Source of the DNA: Sulfurimonas sp.
Lineage (GTDB): Bacteria; Campylobacterota; Campylobacteria; Campylobacterales; Sulfurimonadaceae
Assembly (NCBI RefSeq): GCF_029027585.1
Contig: NZ_CP093397.1
Coordinates: 2,531,405-2,595,404 of the forward strand
Reading direction: 5' to 3'
DNA length: 64,000 nucleotides
Position 1 is the stretch's first letter; every line of letters begins with the position of its first letter. The translations under genes and the position numbers were made by a program. Positions 21,265-28,262 of this stretch are shown piece by piece. Below the pieces are notes generated by a model. That model was not told the origin of the DNA, searched no databases, and was given only the letters and a program-made list of their open reading frames with translations.

Positions 21265-22471
21265 ATCACTAAGAGGAATGAATGATATTTTAAGTGAAGA
21301 CTATCAAAGATTTACTTACTTCATAGACACAGCAACTAAGATAGCACAAAACTATGGTTACCACTTTATAGAAACACCTCTTCTTGAAGAAACAGCACTT
21401 TTTAAGCGTTCAGTTGGAGAAAGTAGTGATATCGTTGGAAAAGAGATGTATCAGTTTATAGACAAAGGTAAGAATGATGTTTGTCTTCGTCCAGAAGGAA
21501 CAGCTGGAGTAGTTCGTGCATTTATACAAAAAAAGCTTGATAAAGCTGGTGGCACTCATAGATTTTTTTATCACGGACCTATGTTTCGCTATGAGCGACC
21601 TCAAAAAGGAAGACTTAGAGAGTTTCATCAGTTTGGTGTTGAGAGTTTTGGAGTAGATAGTGTTTATGAAGATGCTACTATGATAATGATGGTTGCGGAC
21701 ATCTTACAAACTCTTGGGATTGGGTACAAACTTCAACTAAACTCCTTAGGCGATAACAACTGTATGCCTCAATATCGTGAATCTCTAATCTCATTTTTAG
21801 ACTTACACGAAAATAATATATGCGAAGACTGTAAAAGAAGAAAAAATACAAATCCTATAAGAGTTCTTGATTGTAAAAATGAAAATTGTCAAAACTTATA
21901 TAAAGATGCTCCAAAGCTTTTAAATAATCTTTGTGAAGGTTGTGAAGATGATTTTAGTGCTCTTAAGAAAATCTTACAAGATAATGACATAGAGTATGAA
22001 ATAGATACAAACTTAGTAAGAGGGCTTGATTACTATTCTAAAACAGCTTTTGAGTTTGTGAGTGATAACATAGGAAGTCAAAGTGCAATCGCAGGTGGTG
22101 GACGATACGACAGACTTGTTGAGTTTTTAGATGGTCGCCCTACTCCTGCTGTTGGTTTTGCTATGGGGATAGAAAGGTTAATGGAACTCATCGTTATGCC
22201 TGATACTTTTAGAGAAGGTTATTATATTGGCGCGATGGATGTAGAAGCTGTTGATTTGGTTGTAAGACTTGCTCAAAGTAAAAGAAAAACAGTTAAAACT
22301 ACTATTGACTACAAAGCTAAGAACTTACAAAAGCATTTAAAAGCAGCAGACAAAGCAAATGCAAGATTTTGCTGTATAATAGGTTCAAATGAATTAAAAG
22401 ACAATACTATTTGGATGAAAAATTTAGAAGATAAAACAGAAAAGACAATTAATATAGGGGATTTTAAATGA
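21257..22471 (+). CDS. hisS: Histidyl-tRNA synthetase
   Basis: This is a class II synthetase of 404 residues. Motif 1 is in the N-terminal RGMNDILSEDYQRF region. Motif 2 is FRYERPQKGRLREFHQFGVE. The histidine-A motif is LVRGLDYYSKTAFEF. Motif 3 is AVGFAMGIERLMEL. The C-terminal anticodon-binding domain is somewhat short. It contains an extra Cys-rich segment (CEDCKRRKN... CEGCEDD, about residues 190-235), as seen in relatives. The stop overlaps the next gene by 4 bp. Confidence 0.96.
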   Translation: MIKSLRGMNDILSEDYQRFTYFIDTATKIAQNYGYHFIETPLLEETALFKRSVGESSDIVGKEMYQFIDKGKNDVCLRPEGTAGVVRAFIQKKLDKAGGTHRFFYHGPMFRYERPQKGRLREFHQFGVESFGVDSVYEDATMIMMVADILQTLGIGYKLQLNSLGDNNCMPQYRESLISFLDLHENNICEDCKRRKNTNPIRVLDCKNENCQNLYKDAPKLLNNLCEGCEDDFSALKKILQDNDIEYEIDTNLVRGLDYYSKTAFEFVSDNIGSQSAIAGGGRYDRLVEFLDGRPTPAVGFAMGIERLMELIVMPDTFREGYYIGAMDVEAVDLVVRLAQSKRKTVKTTIDYKAKNLQKHLKAADKANARFCCIIGSNELKDNTIWMKNLEDKTEKTINIGDFK

Positions 22472-24197
22472 TAGATACACTACATGCCGTATGGTCAATT
22501 TTTATTGACTTCATTGAGTTTTTCTTGCTGGTTGGTTTAATAGGTTTAGTTATGCTTTATGTATATGACAAACATGTTCAAAGAAGACATGCCTTGCTTA
22601 TTAATTATCCTGTAATTGGACGAATGAGGTACTTTTTTGAAACACTAAGAGAGCCACTTAGACAATATTTTGCAGAAGAAACTTTTTATGATTCTAAAGA
22701 TAAAGTTGATTGGGTATATACAGCTGCAAAAGACAAACCAAACTATAAATCATTTTCAGTAACTCAGCCATTTTCTGGTTCAAGATTTATCATAAAACAT
22801 TCAACAAATGTACTAAATGATGATGAAGTAAGCAATGAAACATCAGTTACTTTTGGTGAAAATAGAGAGTTTCCTTTTGTTTCTCATACGCCTATCATCC
22901 GTTCTGCTATGAGCGATGGAGCACTAAGTCCAGAGGCTGTTCGAGCTTTTTCTATCGCTGGGGCTAACTCAAACCTAACTATAAACACAGGAGAAGGTTC
23001 ACTTACTTCAAACCATCTCTTTACTCATCAACCAGATATAAAAAATGCAAAATACTTAGAAGTTGTACAAAGTACACCAAAAGCTGAGTTTGTTTTTAAA
23101 CTTGGAGAATTCTTTTTCAATCGAGCGCGAGCTTTAAAGTGGTATAGAACTGCCTTATTAAATAAAAGAACTCAAAACACTTATATCTATGCTACAAATT
23201 CACATGCTTTATTTCGTGTAAACTGGAAAGCACCTATTGAAGATTTTCCAAAAGAAGTTCCAAGCGATATTCCAAATATGATTTTTCAAATGAGTTCAGG
23301 ACTTTTTGGAGTTAGAGATGAAACAGGTAAATTTAATGATTTAAAATACCAAAAAGTTATGAAATTTTGTCGTATGACTGAAATAAAAATTGCTCAAGGG
23401 GCAAAACAGACTGGGGGGAAACTTGCTGCTGCAAAAGTTACTGCTGATATTGCTTATTATAGAGGTGTTGAAGAAGGTAAAAATGTTTTTCTCCAAATAG
23501 ATTTCCTTTTGCAGATACAACAAAGCATCTTCTTGATTTTGTCCATAGATTACAAAAACTATCAGGGAAGCCCGTTGGTTTTAAAATAGTTATTTCAGAT
23601 GCTAATGCAGTTGAAGATTTAGTTAAAGAAATTGCAGCAAGAAAAGCACAAGGCAAAAATACACCAGACTTCATATCAGTAGATAGCGGAGAAGGTGGAA
23701 GTGCAACTGCACCACTAGAACTTATGGAATCGGTTGGATTAACTACCAATAATGCTCTTTATTTACTAGATACAATGCTTAAAAAACATAATATTCGTAG
23801 AGATTTAAAAATCATAGCTAGTGGTAAAATATTGACTCCTGATGATGCAATCATAACACTTGCAATGGGAGCAGATGCCATAGGAATTGCTAGAGGTTTT
23901 ATGATGAGTGGTGGCTGTATTCGTGCTCAAATGTGTTCTGGATTTGGTTCTCATGTTTGCCCTGTTGGAATGGCGACTCAAGATGAGAAAAAGAGAGCCT
24001 CTTATTTAGTTGTTAAAGAAGGTAAAGAGATTGGTAATTACCATACAAACCTAATAAAAGGGATGAAAGTTGTATGTGCTGTCATGGGTGTTGAAAAAAT
24101 GTGTGATTTAAGTAAGTCGAACTTAACTTTTAAAAATCAAAACGGAGAAATTTATTTTGATATAGATAAATATTTTCATCATAAACTTCATATATAA
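22468..24197 (+). CDS. FMN-binding glutamate synthase-family protein, with a frameshift at 23486-23490
   Basis: This GltB-type FMN domain stands alone without an amidotransferase domain. One membrane helix (about residues 14-32) is followed by the FMN/glutamate synthase core. The C-terminal part has FISVDSGEGGSATAPLELMESVG, IIASGKILTPDDAI and the cysteine cluster CIRAQMCSGFGSHVCPVGMA of the 3Fe-4S site. The halves lie in different frames. Adding one T to the T5 run at 23486-23490 reads GKNVFSPNRFPFADTTKHLL and gives about 576 residues. Its substrate is not known from sequence. It starts within the hisS stop. Confidence 0.87.
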
Positions 24198-26757: not shown

Positions 26758-26778
26758 ACTATTTTTTAGTATAATGCG

Positions 26779-27070
26779 GTTGAATCCTCTGCACAATTAC
26801 ATATTCTCAGAGAGTTTTTAAAAGGTAAGATTGTGCATAACTTTTTTTGTACCCAAGGGCATTTCCTTCGGGCAGTTTTAGCCTTAGCTAAGACGATGAA
26901 AAATTATGTGCAAGATTGCTTTTAAAAAACCCTCCCTTTGGGCACAACAAAAGATAAACTCTTACTTCGTTGAAGCCACTTGAAGCTACACATAGCTCCT
27001 GCGTAACTTCGCCTTGTAATAGTCCATCTTTTGTTCTGCTGAGAACATGTAATTGTGCAGAGGGTTCAAC
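26779..27070. repeat. 292-bp long palindromic folded element before aspC
   Basis: Outer arms of 32 bases (26779-26810 and 27039-27070) are inverted repeats with 30 identities. One of the two differences still pairs as G-U. Inside, at least two further arms pair: TTGTGCATAA (about 26832) with TTATGTGCAA (about 26902), flanked by complementary U/A-rich parts, and AACAAAAGAT (about 26946) with ATCTTTTGTT (about 27026). Small hairpins such as TTAGC-CTTA-GCTAA and AGCTA-CACA-TAGCT lie inside. No coding frame fits. The right arm ends 22 bp before the aspC ATG. It could be a MITE-like non-autonomous element, a structured leader, or a small RNA. It contains the word TACCCAAGGGCA, also seen in the IS remnant at 60 kb. 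Confidence 0.75.
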
Positions 27071-27092
27071 TATTAAAACAATGGAGATTTAC

Positions 27093-28262
27093 ATGCTAAC
27101 TAATCGCGTAAACATACTATCTGAATCAATCACGATTGCTATTACAACACTTGCTGGGGAGTTAAAAGCTCAAGGTAAAGATATTCTTAGTTTTTCTGCT
27201 GGTGAGCCTGATTTTGGAACGCCACAAGTAATTAAAGATGCTGCTATCGCTGCAATTAATGCTGACTTTACAAAATACACAGCTGTTGATGGAATCATTG
27301 AACTAAGAGAAGCTATTGCCAATAAGCTAAAAAGAGATAATGGTTTAACTTATGCTCCTAATCAAATTATAGTTAACAATGGTGCTAAACACTCTTTATT
27401 TAACCTTTTTTCTGCAACAATTGAAGATGGTGCCGAAGTTATCATTCCTGCTCCTTACTGGGTTACATATCCTGAATTAGTAAATTATTGTGGTGGTAAA
27501 GTTATTGAAATTCATACACATGATTATGATTCATTTAAAATAACACCTGAGCAACTTAAAAATGCTATCACTCCTAAAACAAAGATGCTAATTCTAACTA
27601 CACCATCTAACCCAACTGGTTCCATATACACAAAAGATGAACTTACAGAACTTGGAAAAGTTTTAGAAGGTACAGATATTATAGTTGCAAGTGATGAGAT
27701 GTATGAAAAACTAACTTATGAAGGTGAGTTTACTTCTGTAGCATCTGTAAGTGAAGATATGTTTAAAAGAACTGTAACTATCAATGGTCTAAGTAAATCA
27801 GTTGCAATGACTGGATGGAGATTTGGTTATATGGCAGCATATGACACAGATCTTATCAAAGCAACTAAGAAACTACAATCTCAAAGTACATCAAACATCA
27901 ACTCTATCACTCAAAAAGCAGCTATCGCTGGTTTAGATGGAAGTGCAGATGCTGATATAGCAATGATGAGAGAAGAATTCATCAAAAGAAGAGATGAGGC
28001 AATGAAACTTATTAATGAAATAGATGGACTAAGTGTTGTAAAACCAGATGGTGCATTTTACCTATTTGTAAATATTAAAGATGTTTCTTCTGATTCTCTT
28101 TCATTTGCAAAAGATTTACTTGATAAAAAATTGGTTGCTGTTGTTCCAGGTGTTGCTTTTGGTAGTGATGGTTACTTTAGAATGAGTTTTGCGACCGATA
28201 TAAATACTATTCGCACAGGTATTGCTAGAATAGCAGAATTTGTCAAAGAGTTAAAAGTATAA
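27093..28262 (+). CDS. aspC: Class I aminotransferase (aspartate aminotransferase type)
   Basis: This PLP-dependent transaminase of 389 residues belongs to fold type I. Visible motifs are FSAGEPDFGTP near the N terminus, TTPSNPTGS, the lysine Schiff-base site NGLSKSVAMTGWRFGY (about residue 235) and the C-terminal FRMSFAT (substrate arginine). I choose ATG 27093 because it has GGAG upstream and matches homologue starts. The frame is open back to 26970, but that stretch lies inside the palindromic element. Substrate preference (aspartate) is inferred from family similarity. Confidence 0.92.
   Translation: MLTNRVNILSESITIAITTLAGELKAQGKDILSFSAGEPDFGTPQVIKDAAIAAINADFTKYTAVDGIIELREAIANKLKRDNGLTYAPNQIIVNNGAKHSLFNLFSATIEDGAEVIIPAPYWVTYPELVNYCGGKVIEIHTHDYDSFKITPEQLKNAITPKTKMLILTTPSNPTGSIYTKDELTELGKVLEGTDIIVASDEMYEKLTYEGEFTSVASVSEDMFKRTVTINGLSKSVAMTGWRFGYMAAYDTDLIKATKKLQSQSTSNINSITQKAAIAGLDGSADADIAMMREEFIKRRDEAMKLINEIDGLSVVKPDGAFYLFVNIKDVSSDSLSFAKDLLDKKLVAVVPGVAFGSDGYFRMSFATDINTIRTGIARIAEFVKELKV

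Follow-up and report, generated by a model that had tools for sequence, protein, structure and literature searches.

The long palindrome in front of aspC

Directly upstream of the aspartate aminotransferase gene aspC, the 64-kb stretch of Sulfurimonas DNA analysed here (in the following, the window) contains a palindrome of 292 bp. An earlier note on this DNA left it open whether it is a MITE-like repeat, a cis-acting leader or a small RNA. What, then, is this palindrome, and how did it come to lie in front of aspC? A scan of the window for inverted repeats with arms of at least 22 nt lying within 400 nt of each other gave 14 cases, the strongest being the palindrome at 26779-27070. Its outer arms (26779-26810 and 27039-27070, 32 nt each, spacer 228 nt) match at 30 of 32 positions and are thus 94% complementary. 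Recomputing the match reproduced exactly the limits and the number of identities given in the note, and the right arm ends, as stated there, 22 nt upstream of the aspC start codon (ATG at 27093). The further nested arms that had been postulated are present at 26942-26965/27016-27039 and are 83% complementary. Folded as RNA, the palindrome reaches -115.9 kcal/mol on the plus strand (z -10.6) and -126.0 kcal/mol on the minus strand (z -12.0); on either strand, none of 200 dinucleotide shuffles folded as well. One correction concerns the outer arms: read on the plus strand, their two mismatches are one T.G and one A.C, so the arms are not wobble-preserving on the mRNA-sense strand.

The palindrome is very probably a non-autonomous MITE-like transposable element, which, in this Sulfurimonas lineage, entered the aspC leader downstream of the -10 box and upstream of the ribosome-binding site. 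The window copy has terminal inverted repeats, an empty site in a relative and no internal transposase, and its family has dispersed copies. The parts of the element and its surroundings are as follows.

26770..26775, plus strand: -10 box TATAAT of aspC, conserved upstream of aspC in relatives
26779..26810, plus strand: left outer arm (terminal inverted repeat), from the inverted-repeat search
26811..26932, plus strand: core hairpin 1, of a variant that lacks the AAGGC loop; limits approximate, as read from the MFE fold; best AGACT-class match 79% over 126 nt
26852..26875, plus strand: extra small hairpin within hairpin 1, common to L032 and L033; approximate limits from the alignment
26934..26942, plus strand: central CCC-TTT-GGG mini-hairpin linking both core hairpins, from the sequence
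26938..27039, minus strand: core hairpin 2, match to covariance model R1 (92.5 bits, E 1.8e-20)
26966..26973, minus strand: side 2 of the conserved internal loop, CAACGAAG; no variation in the AAC and AG columns (32/32 hairpins)
27011..27016, minus strand: conserved internal loop, side 1, CAAGGC; AAGGC columns invariant in 32/32 hairpins
27039..27070, plus strand: right outer arm (terminal inverted repeat), from the inverted-repeat search
27083..27086, plus strand: ribosome-binding site GGAG of aspC, outside the element; from the sequence, conserved in the empty-site relative
27093..28262, plus strand: aspC, aspartate aminotransferase, 389 aa (PF00155)

The gene upstream of the element is cysE (TIGR01172). 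No open reading frame of at least 60 aa, and hence no internal transposase, lies within 26779-27070; the reading frame listed from 26970 extends aspC in the upstream direction. The element measures 292 bp rather than about 266 bp because of the extra small hairpin at 26852..26875. Hairpin 2 is the only match to model R1 inside the window and was itself one of the 32 hairpins used in building that model. An Rfam scan of the window matched only a tRNA and gave nothing for the element.

Insertion between promoter and ribosome-binding site

The nearest named aspC loci belong to metagenome-assembled genomes of Sulfurimonas. The nearest relative with an aspC gene (locus L060, genome G058; aspC 94% identical) has an empty site. 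Its upstream region reads ...TTTTTTAGTATAAT-ATCTC-TATTAAAATAATGGAGATTTACATG, whereas the window reads ...TTTTTTAGTATAAT-GCG-[292 bp]-TATTAAAACAATGGAGATTTACATG; at the junctions, TATAAT-ATCTC-TATTAAAA is opposed to TATAAT-GCG-element-TATTAAAA. Judged from this comparison, the palindrome is an insertion, flanked directly by the -10 box on its upstream side and by the ribosome-binding site on its downstream side. The element was absent from all 37 aspC upstream regions examined (130 nt each; 37 of 80 loci). No target duplication is readable at the window copy (flanks GCG and TAT), because 3-5 junction bases differ. As promoter and ribosome-binding site of aspC are intact, transcription probably runs through the element, which would then form a self-folded insert in the 5'UTR and leave the ribosome-binding site and the start site free; the insertion is presumably tolerated at aspC. 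At another Sulfurimonas aspC locus (L088), the -10 box is closely preceded by a fragment of another palindromic repeat, whose last letters are ...CTAAGTTATGAAAGAAGGCT.

A family with a covarying core

The note had proposed searching the genome and its relatives for copies and for covariation; both were found, so that neither of the two outcomes named there as refuting it occurred. A blastn search with the window element detected copies in the same genome; of 99 relatives, 34 had copies as well, and nearly all of these belong to the genus. The matches cover the interior and not the arms; the arm type of the window element was not found by blastn elsewhere in the 99 genomes. Covariance model R1 was built from an alignment (A1) of 32 hairpins, in which 92.8% of the cells are paired and 34 of 37 pairs show changes on both sides. 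The covariation score of A1 is 0.833, compared with 0.248 for shuffled alignments and at most 0.172 for slid structures; covariation in the core is strong. The two sides of the internal loop, AAGGC opposite AAC plus AG, are the same in all 32 hairpins.

With R1, six hairpins in four elements were identified in the own genome, and matches occurred in 50 of 85 genomes of the genus and in 27 of 249 sampled genomes of the phylum, the latter from 14 of 55 genera. In many elements, two convergent R1 hairpins meet at a CCCnnnGGG motif and are enclosed by outer arms. Classified elements of at least 255 bp are 256-292 bp long, with class medians of 261-269 bp. Near-identical multi-copy sets (about 94-98%) exist in genomes G133, G335 and G062. 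For four additional loci from the family of G178, Rfam gave no match. A plasmid search with three elements and a phage search with the window element returned nothing useful, the one hit being a weak Virgibacillus match (E 0.8). Reduced forms also occur, namely arms-only elements (L216, L217) and one-hairpin elements (L194 and L219, 158 bp), which are apparently clean losses of both or one of the core hairpins.

Outer ends, target-site duplications and insertion sequences

The outer arms differ completely between the classes of the family. Identical flanking duplications of 4 bp were found in 10 of 16 GGGCACCTCTAAAAAC elements, duplications of 3 bp in 19 of 29 AGACTTC elements (ANT, i.e. ATT or AAT, and one ACT), and the 3-bp duplication TAA in all five TACCA elements. 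In the AAGT class, 29 of 31 elements have T..A flanks fitting TA|AGT...ACT|TA, and among the 12 ACCGC elements, nine agree with a comparable TA pattern; since TA is its own complement, these flanks are consistent with a duplication and do not prove it. The automatic end classification left 56 elements as 'other', as limits or patterns failed.

Judged by their ends, insertion sequences corresponding to two classes were found. Genome G125 contains an 896-bp insertion sequence of the IS5 family (L377), which has AGACTTCTTGCATAACC at its ends and is bounded by an ATT duplication; equal ends as well as the ATT duplication occur in the AGACT class. Unlike the elements of the family, L377 carries a transposase gene, which is split (the best model, NF033581, is below its cut-off, DDE_Tnp_4 and DDE_Tnp_1 are above theirs), and only the outer 16-17 bp are common to both. 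For the AAGT class, genome G107 holds IS630-family insertion sequences (L370, L373, L375; 1126-1182 bp; NF033545, PF13358/DDE_3), whose ends TAAGTACCTATCCAAAaATAAAACCAATTAA differ by one base over 31 from the ends TAAGTACCTATCCAAAgATAAAACCAATTAA of element L240 in the same genome. The class of L240 is TA-flanked; in the insertion sequences, the place of the hairpin core is taken by the transposase (NF033545, DDE_3).

Among the matches listed, no partner was found for the GGGC, TACC, ACCGC and CTGACC classes, and none carries the window element's own ends; the partner L377 came only from the wider search of 85 genomes of the genus, and further pairs may exist beyond these matches. Searches for terminal inverted repeat patterns, covering 11 genomes for the GGGC class and nine for the AGACT class, yielded no pair at insertion-sequence length; they gave pairs belonging to elements, single-hairpin forms, arms-only forms and solo ends. 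Two candidates were discarded. A 1.8-kb segment (L378, G124 C35) has ordinary genes between two AGACT ends and a different palindromic interior, and is not an insertion sequence; in the other case, L213 of the own genome, a solo GGGC end adjoins the remains of a different insertion sequence. In a transposase search of 10 genomes, PF01609 was found in five and PF13358 in three. Neither domain had a match in G133, G105, G062 and G335, all rich in copies.

Two observations concern other sequences with such ends. In the own genome, locus L214 (about 145016-145116) has AGACTTC-type ends around a different palindromic interior (TTAGATTACTTCGTC...), as is similarly the case in L378 and L381; ends of this type thus carry other cargo, too. 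Next to GGGCACCTCTAA-type ends in G107 stand other palindromic elements, whose hairpins are GGAACCGGTACTTCAGTGCCGGCTG-like (L223, L224, L230, L231).

One core on unrelated ends

The clearest case of a common core on different ends is the pair L203 (GGGC ends, G105) and L306 (AGACT ends, G099), which are 89.8% identical over 196 nt in blastn, whereas the outer ~16 bp are unrelated. L203 has no identical flanking duplication. As it takes part in all of the best 15 of 21 long cross-class pairs, the strongest case for core exchange rests on one GGGC element. Shorter cross-class core matches in blastn connect nearly all classes. For hairpin 2 of the window element, the GGGC class gives the closest match (78% over 145 nt); hairpin 1 is near the AGACT class, as listed above. 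Because the two cores of the pair L203/L306, about 90% identical, stand between unrelated ends, the core seems, on these alignments, to change carriers.

MITEs are usually regarded as deletion derivatives bound to one transposase. For the present family we consider a wider proposal, which is about as likely to be true as not. A phylum-wide selfish DNA core, consisting of two inverted hairpins with an invariant loop, would repeatedly swap the outer ~16 bp at both ends for those of different transposase families (IS5-type with a 3-bp duplication, IS630-type with TA, and a 4-bp type); its fold would be tolerated when transcribed, and it would be a source of 16S rRNA intervening sequences. If this is true, the core would be a mobile passenger independent of any single carrier, with a built-in structure under selection. 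A search of the open literature with weak terms found no core occurring across several end classes with different duplication lengths, and a limited search found no MITE reports for these genera; within the available text of one report, Sulfurimonas gotlandica appears in a REP table only (PMC12306157).

Insertion context and copies in 16S rRNA genes

Family copies lie before unrelated genes, and the -10 box in front of the window copy has counterparts at other sites. The context test comprised 140 oriented sites (108 loci, 141 elements; three 16S copies excluded), compared with random points in the 100 nt before a gene. A perfect TATAAT was found 0-20 nt before the insertion point at 27 of 140 sites versus 13.0 expected (reached by 1 of 5000 random sets), and with one mismatch allowed at 66 of 140 versus 44.2 expected (0 of 5000); these values are subject to crude ORF starts, related copies and AT-rich targets, and -10 motifs pointing away from the element are likewise enriched in its vicinity. 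The family offers a natural test of why some inserts between promoter and gene are tolerated.

The window copy stands before aspC and not in an rRNA gene. In genome G178, all three R1 matches belong to an element inside a 16S rRNA gene, near helix 10; the insert has about 270 nt and is located at model position about 205. The copies are:

L205, 1634-1903: element in 16S rRNA gene of G178, R1 match
L329, 968-1237: element in 16S rRNA gene of G178, R1 match
L330, 968-1237: element in 16S rRNA gene of G178, R1 match

Structured 16S inserts in helix 10 are described for Campylobacter sputorum and others in the available part of PMC12453555, and by that description the G178 copy resembles these intervening sequences in its structure and its 16S location. 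For the 16S rRNA intervening sequences of Campylobacterota, the family offers a candidate origin.

Strand bias of the core hairpins

The suggestion of selection on RNA structure was assessed by comparing G.T with A.C oppositions. Read in the AAGGC orientation, alignment A1 has 45 G.T versus 16 A.C in the outer stem and, with fixed G.U excluded, 58 versus 9 in the inner stems. For 65 deduplicated hairpins the counts are 94 versus 29 (outer stem) and 133 versus 23 (inner); the alignment used here (A2) follows a fit to the model and favours G.U, and its inner count includes fixed G.U (36 of 133). In 43 two-hairpin elements, the G.T bias is found on each hairpin's own strand despite their mutual inversion; each hairpin therefore appears to be selected for folding on one given strand, be it as RNA or as single-stranded DNA. 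In the outer arms of 65 elements, no clear bias was seen on the sense strand of one adjacent gene (49 GT versus 38 AC). A strand-specific wobble bias is thus present in the core hairpins, each on its own strand, and is not clear in the outer arms. A small RNA as the specific function of the palindrome is not supported, as the antisense fold beats the sense fold and the outer arms show no clear bias.

Any role of the core hairpins is a matter of inference, and roles as RNA and as single-stranded DNA are about equally likely; each would add to the MITE reading. Tentatively, the core may be selected as RNA, that is, as a small structured RNA or an RNase III substrate; the hairpins would be one-stranded in action, and an inverted pair would offer the right orientation whichever the direction of transcription. 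The excess of G.T on the AAGGC strand in both inverted hairpins of the 43 elements, the more frequent insertion after a -10 box than by random placement, and the copy within the 16S rRNA genes of G178 point this way. The lack of a clear bias in the outer arms and the G.U-leaning fit of A2 weaken the case, and G.T is favoured over A.C in hairpins of single-stranded DNA as well, so that the bias is no proof of RNA. Somewhat unlikely, in our view, is an action of the hairpins as single-stranded DNA in the manner of REP/RAYT or IS200/IS605 systems, e.g. in transposition or replication. The strand-specific folding bias of each hairpin, the fixed geometry and the conserved internal loop are consistent with it, whereas the target duplications and the matching IS5/IS630 ends point to DDE chemistry at the outer ends.

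Alternative explanations and known systems

With respect to aspC itself, we regard it as very unlikely that the palindrome is a cis-acting RNA leader, riboswitch-like or attenuator, regulating this gene. Its predicted 5'UTR position right after the -10 box, the very stable fold and the covarying core would suit such a leader. However, the element is missing from the aspC upstream regions of all 37 loci examined (of 80), copies occur before unrelated genes and in 16S rRNA, Rfam gives no match, the antisense strand is more stable than the sense strand, and the ribosome-binding site lies outside the element. The leader function considered in the earlier note is consequently not upheld; the window copy is an ordinary family member with no evidence of regulating aspC. 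A palindrome born by chance or slippage, whose paired arms are kept by template-switch correction, is extremely improbable. Such correction can yield covariation without function, but it would have removed the mismatched internal loops, which are conserved in 32/32 hairpins, and the dispersed homologous copies and the empty site contradict this origin.

The possibility of a MITE-like repeat, by comparison, agrees with the dispersed copies, the empty site in the nearest relative, the target-site duplications of sister classes and the insertion sequences with matching ends. According to this MITE reading, a DDE transposase acting in trans would recognise the outer arms as terminal inverted repeats. 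The arms would enclose the conserved core, composed of two convergent hairpins and the CCCnnnGGG mini-hairpin. Throughout Campylobacterota, related cores would travel with several mutually unrelated sets of ends; for at least two of these sets, autonomous insertion sequences (IS5 and IS630 families) have matching ends. Several points speak against this reading: no duplication is readable at the window copy, its arm type was not found elsewhere in the 99 genomes, four classes gave no partner among the matches listed, and PF01609 and PF13358 had no match in the four copy-rich genomes named above. In addition, the conserved loops and the strand-specific wobble bias exceed the needs of a passive MITE.

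Bacterial MITEs are already known. As far as the accessible text of a review goes, Correia/NEMIS, RUP and ERIC are likewise short, mostly intergenic elements with terminal inverted repeats, a target duplication and a long transcribed stem-loop; RUP has ends in common with IS630-Spn1, and for NEMIS an RNase III-type processing was proposed (PMC2229807). In contrast to these elements, the reviewed lengths of which are about 100-200 bp, the present family measures about 265 bp, and its core consists of two hairpins in convergent orientation with an internal loop that is conserved. It also carries one core on several IS-type ends; in the same text, no such sharing is described for MITEs (PMC2229807). 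The CIR elements of Caulobacter and Brucella, by their description there, resemble the family in having two stem-loop arms and a linker, but enclosing terminal arms are not part of that description, and their motif is different (PMC2229807).

Elsewhere in the window, a glutamate-synthase-like reading frame at 22468-24197 is split over two frames (22468-23589 and 23724-24197), for which a frameshift, a pseudogene or a sequencing error may account.
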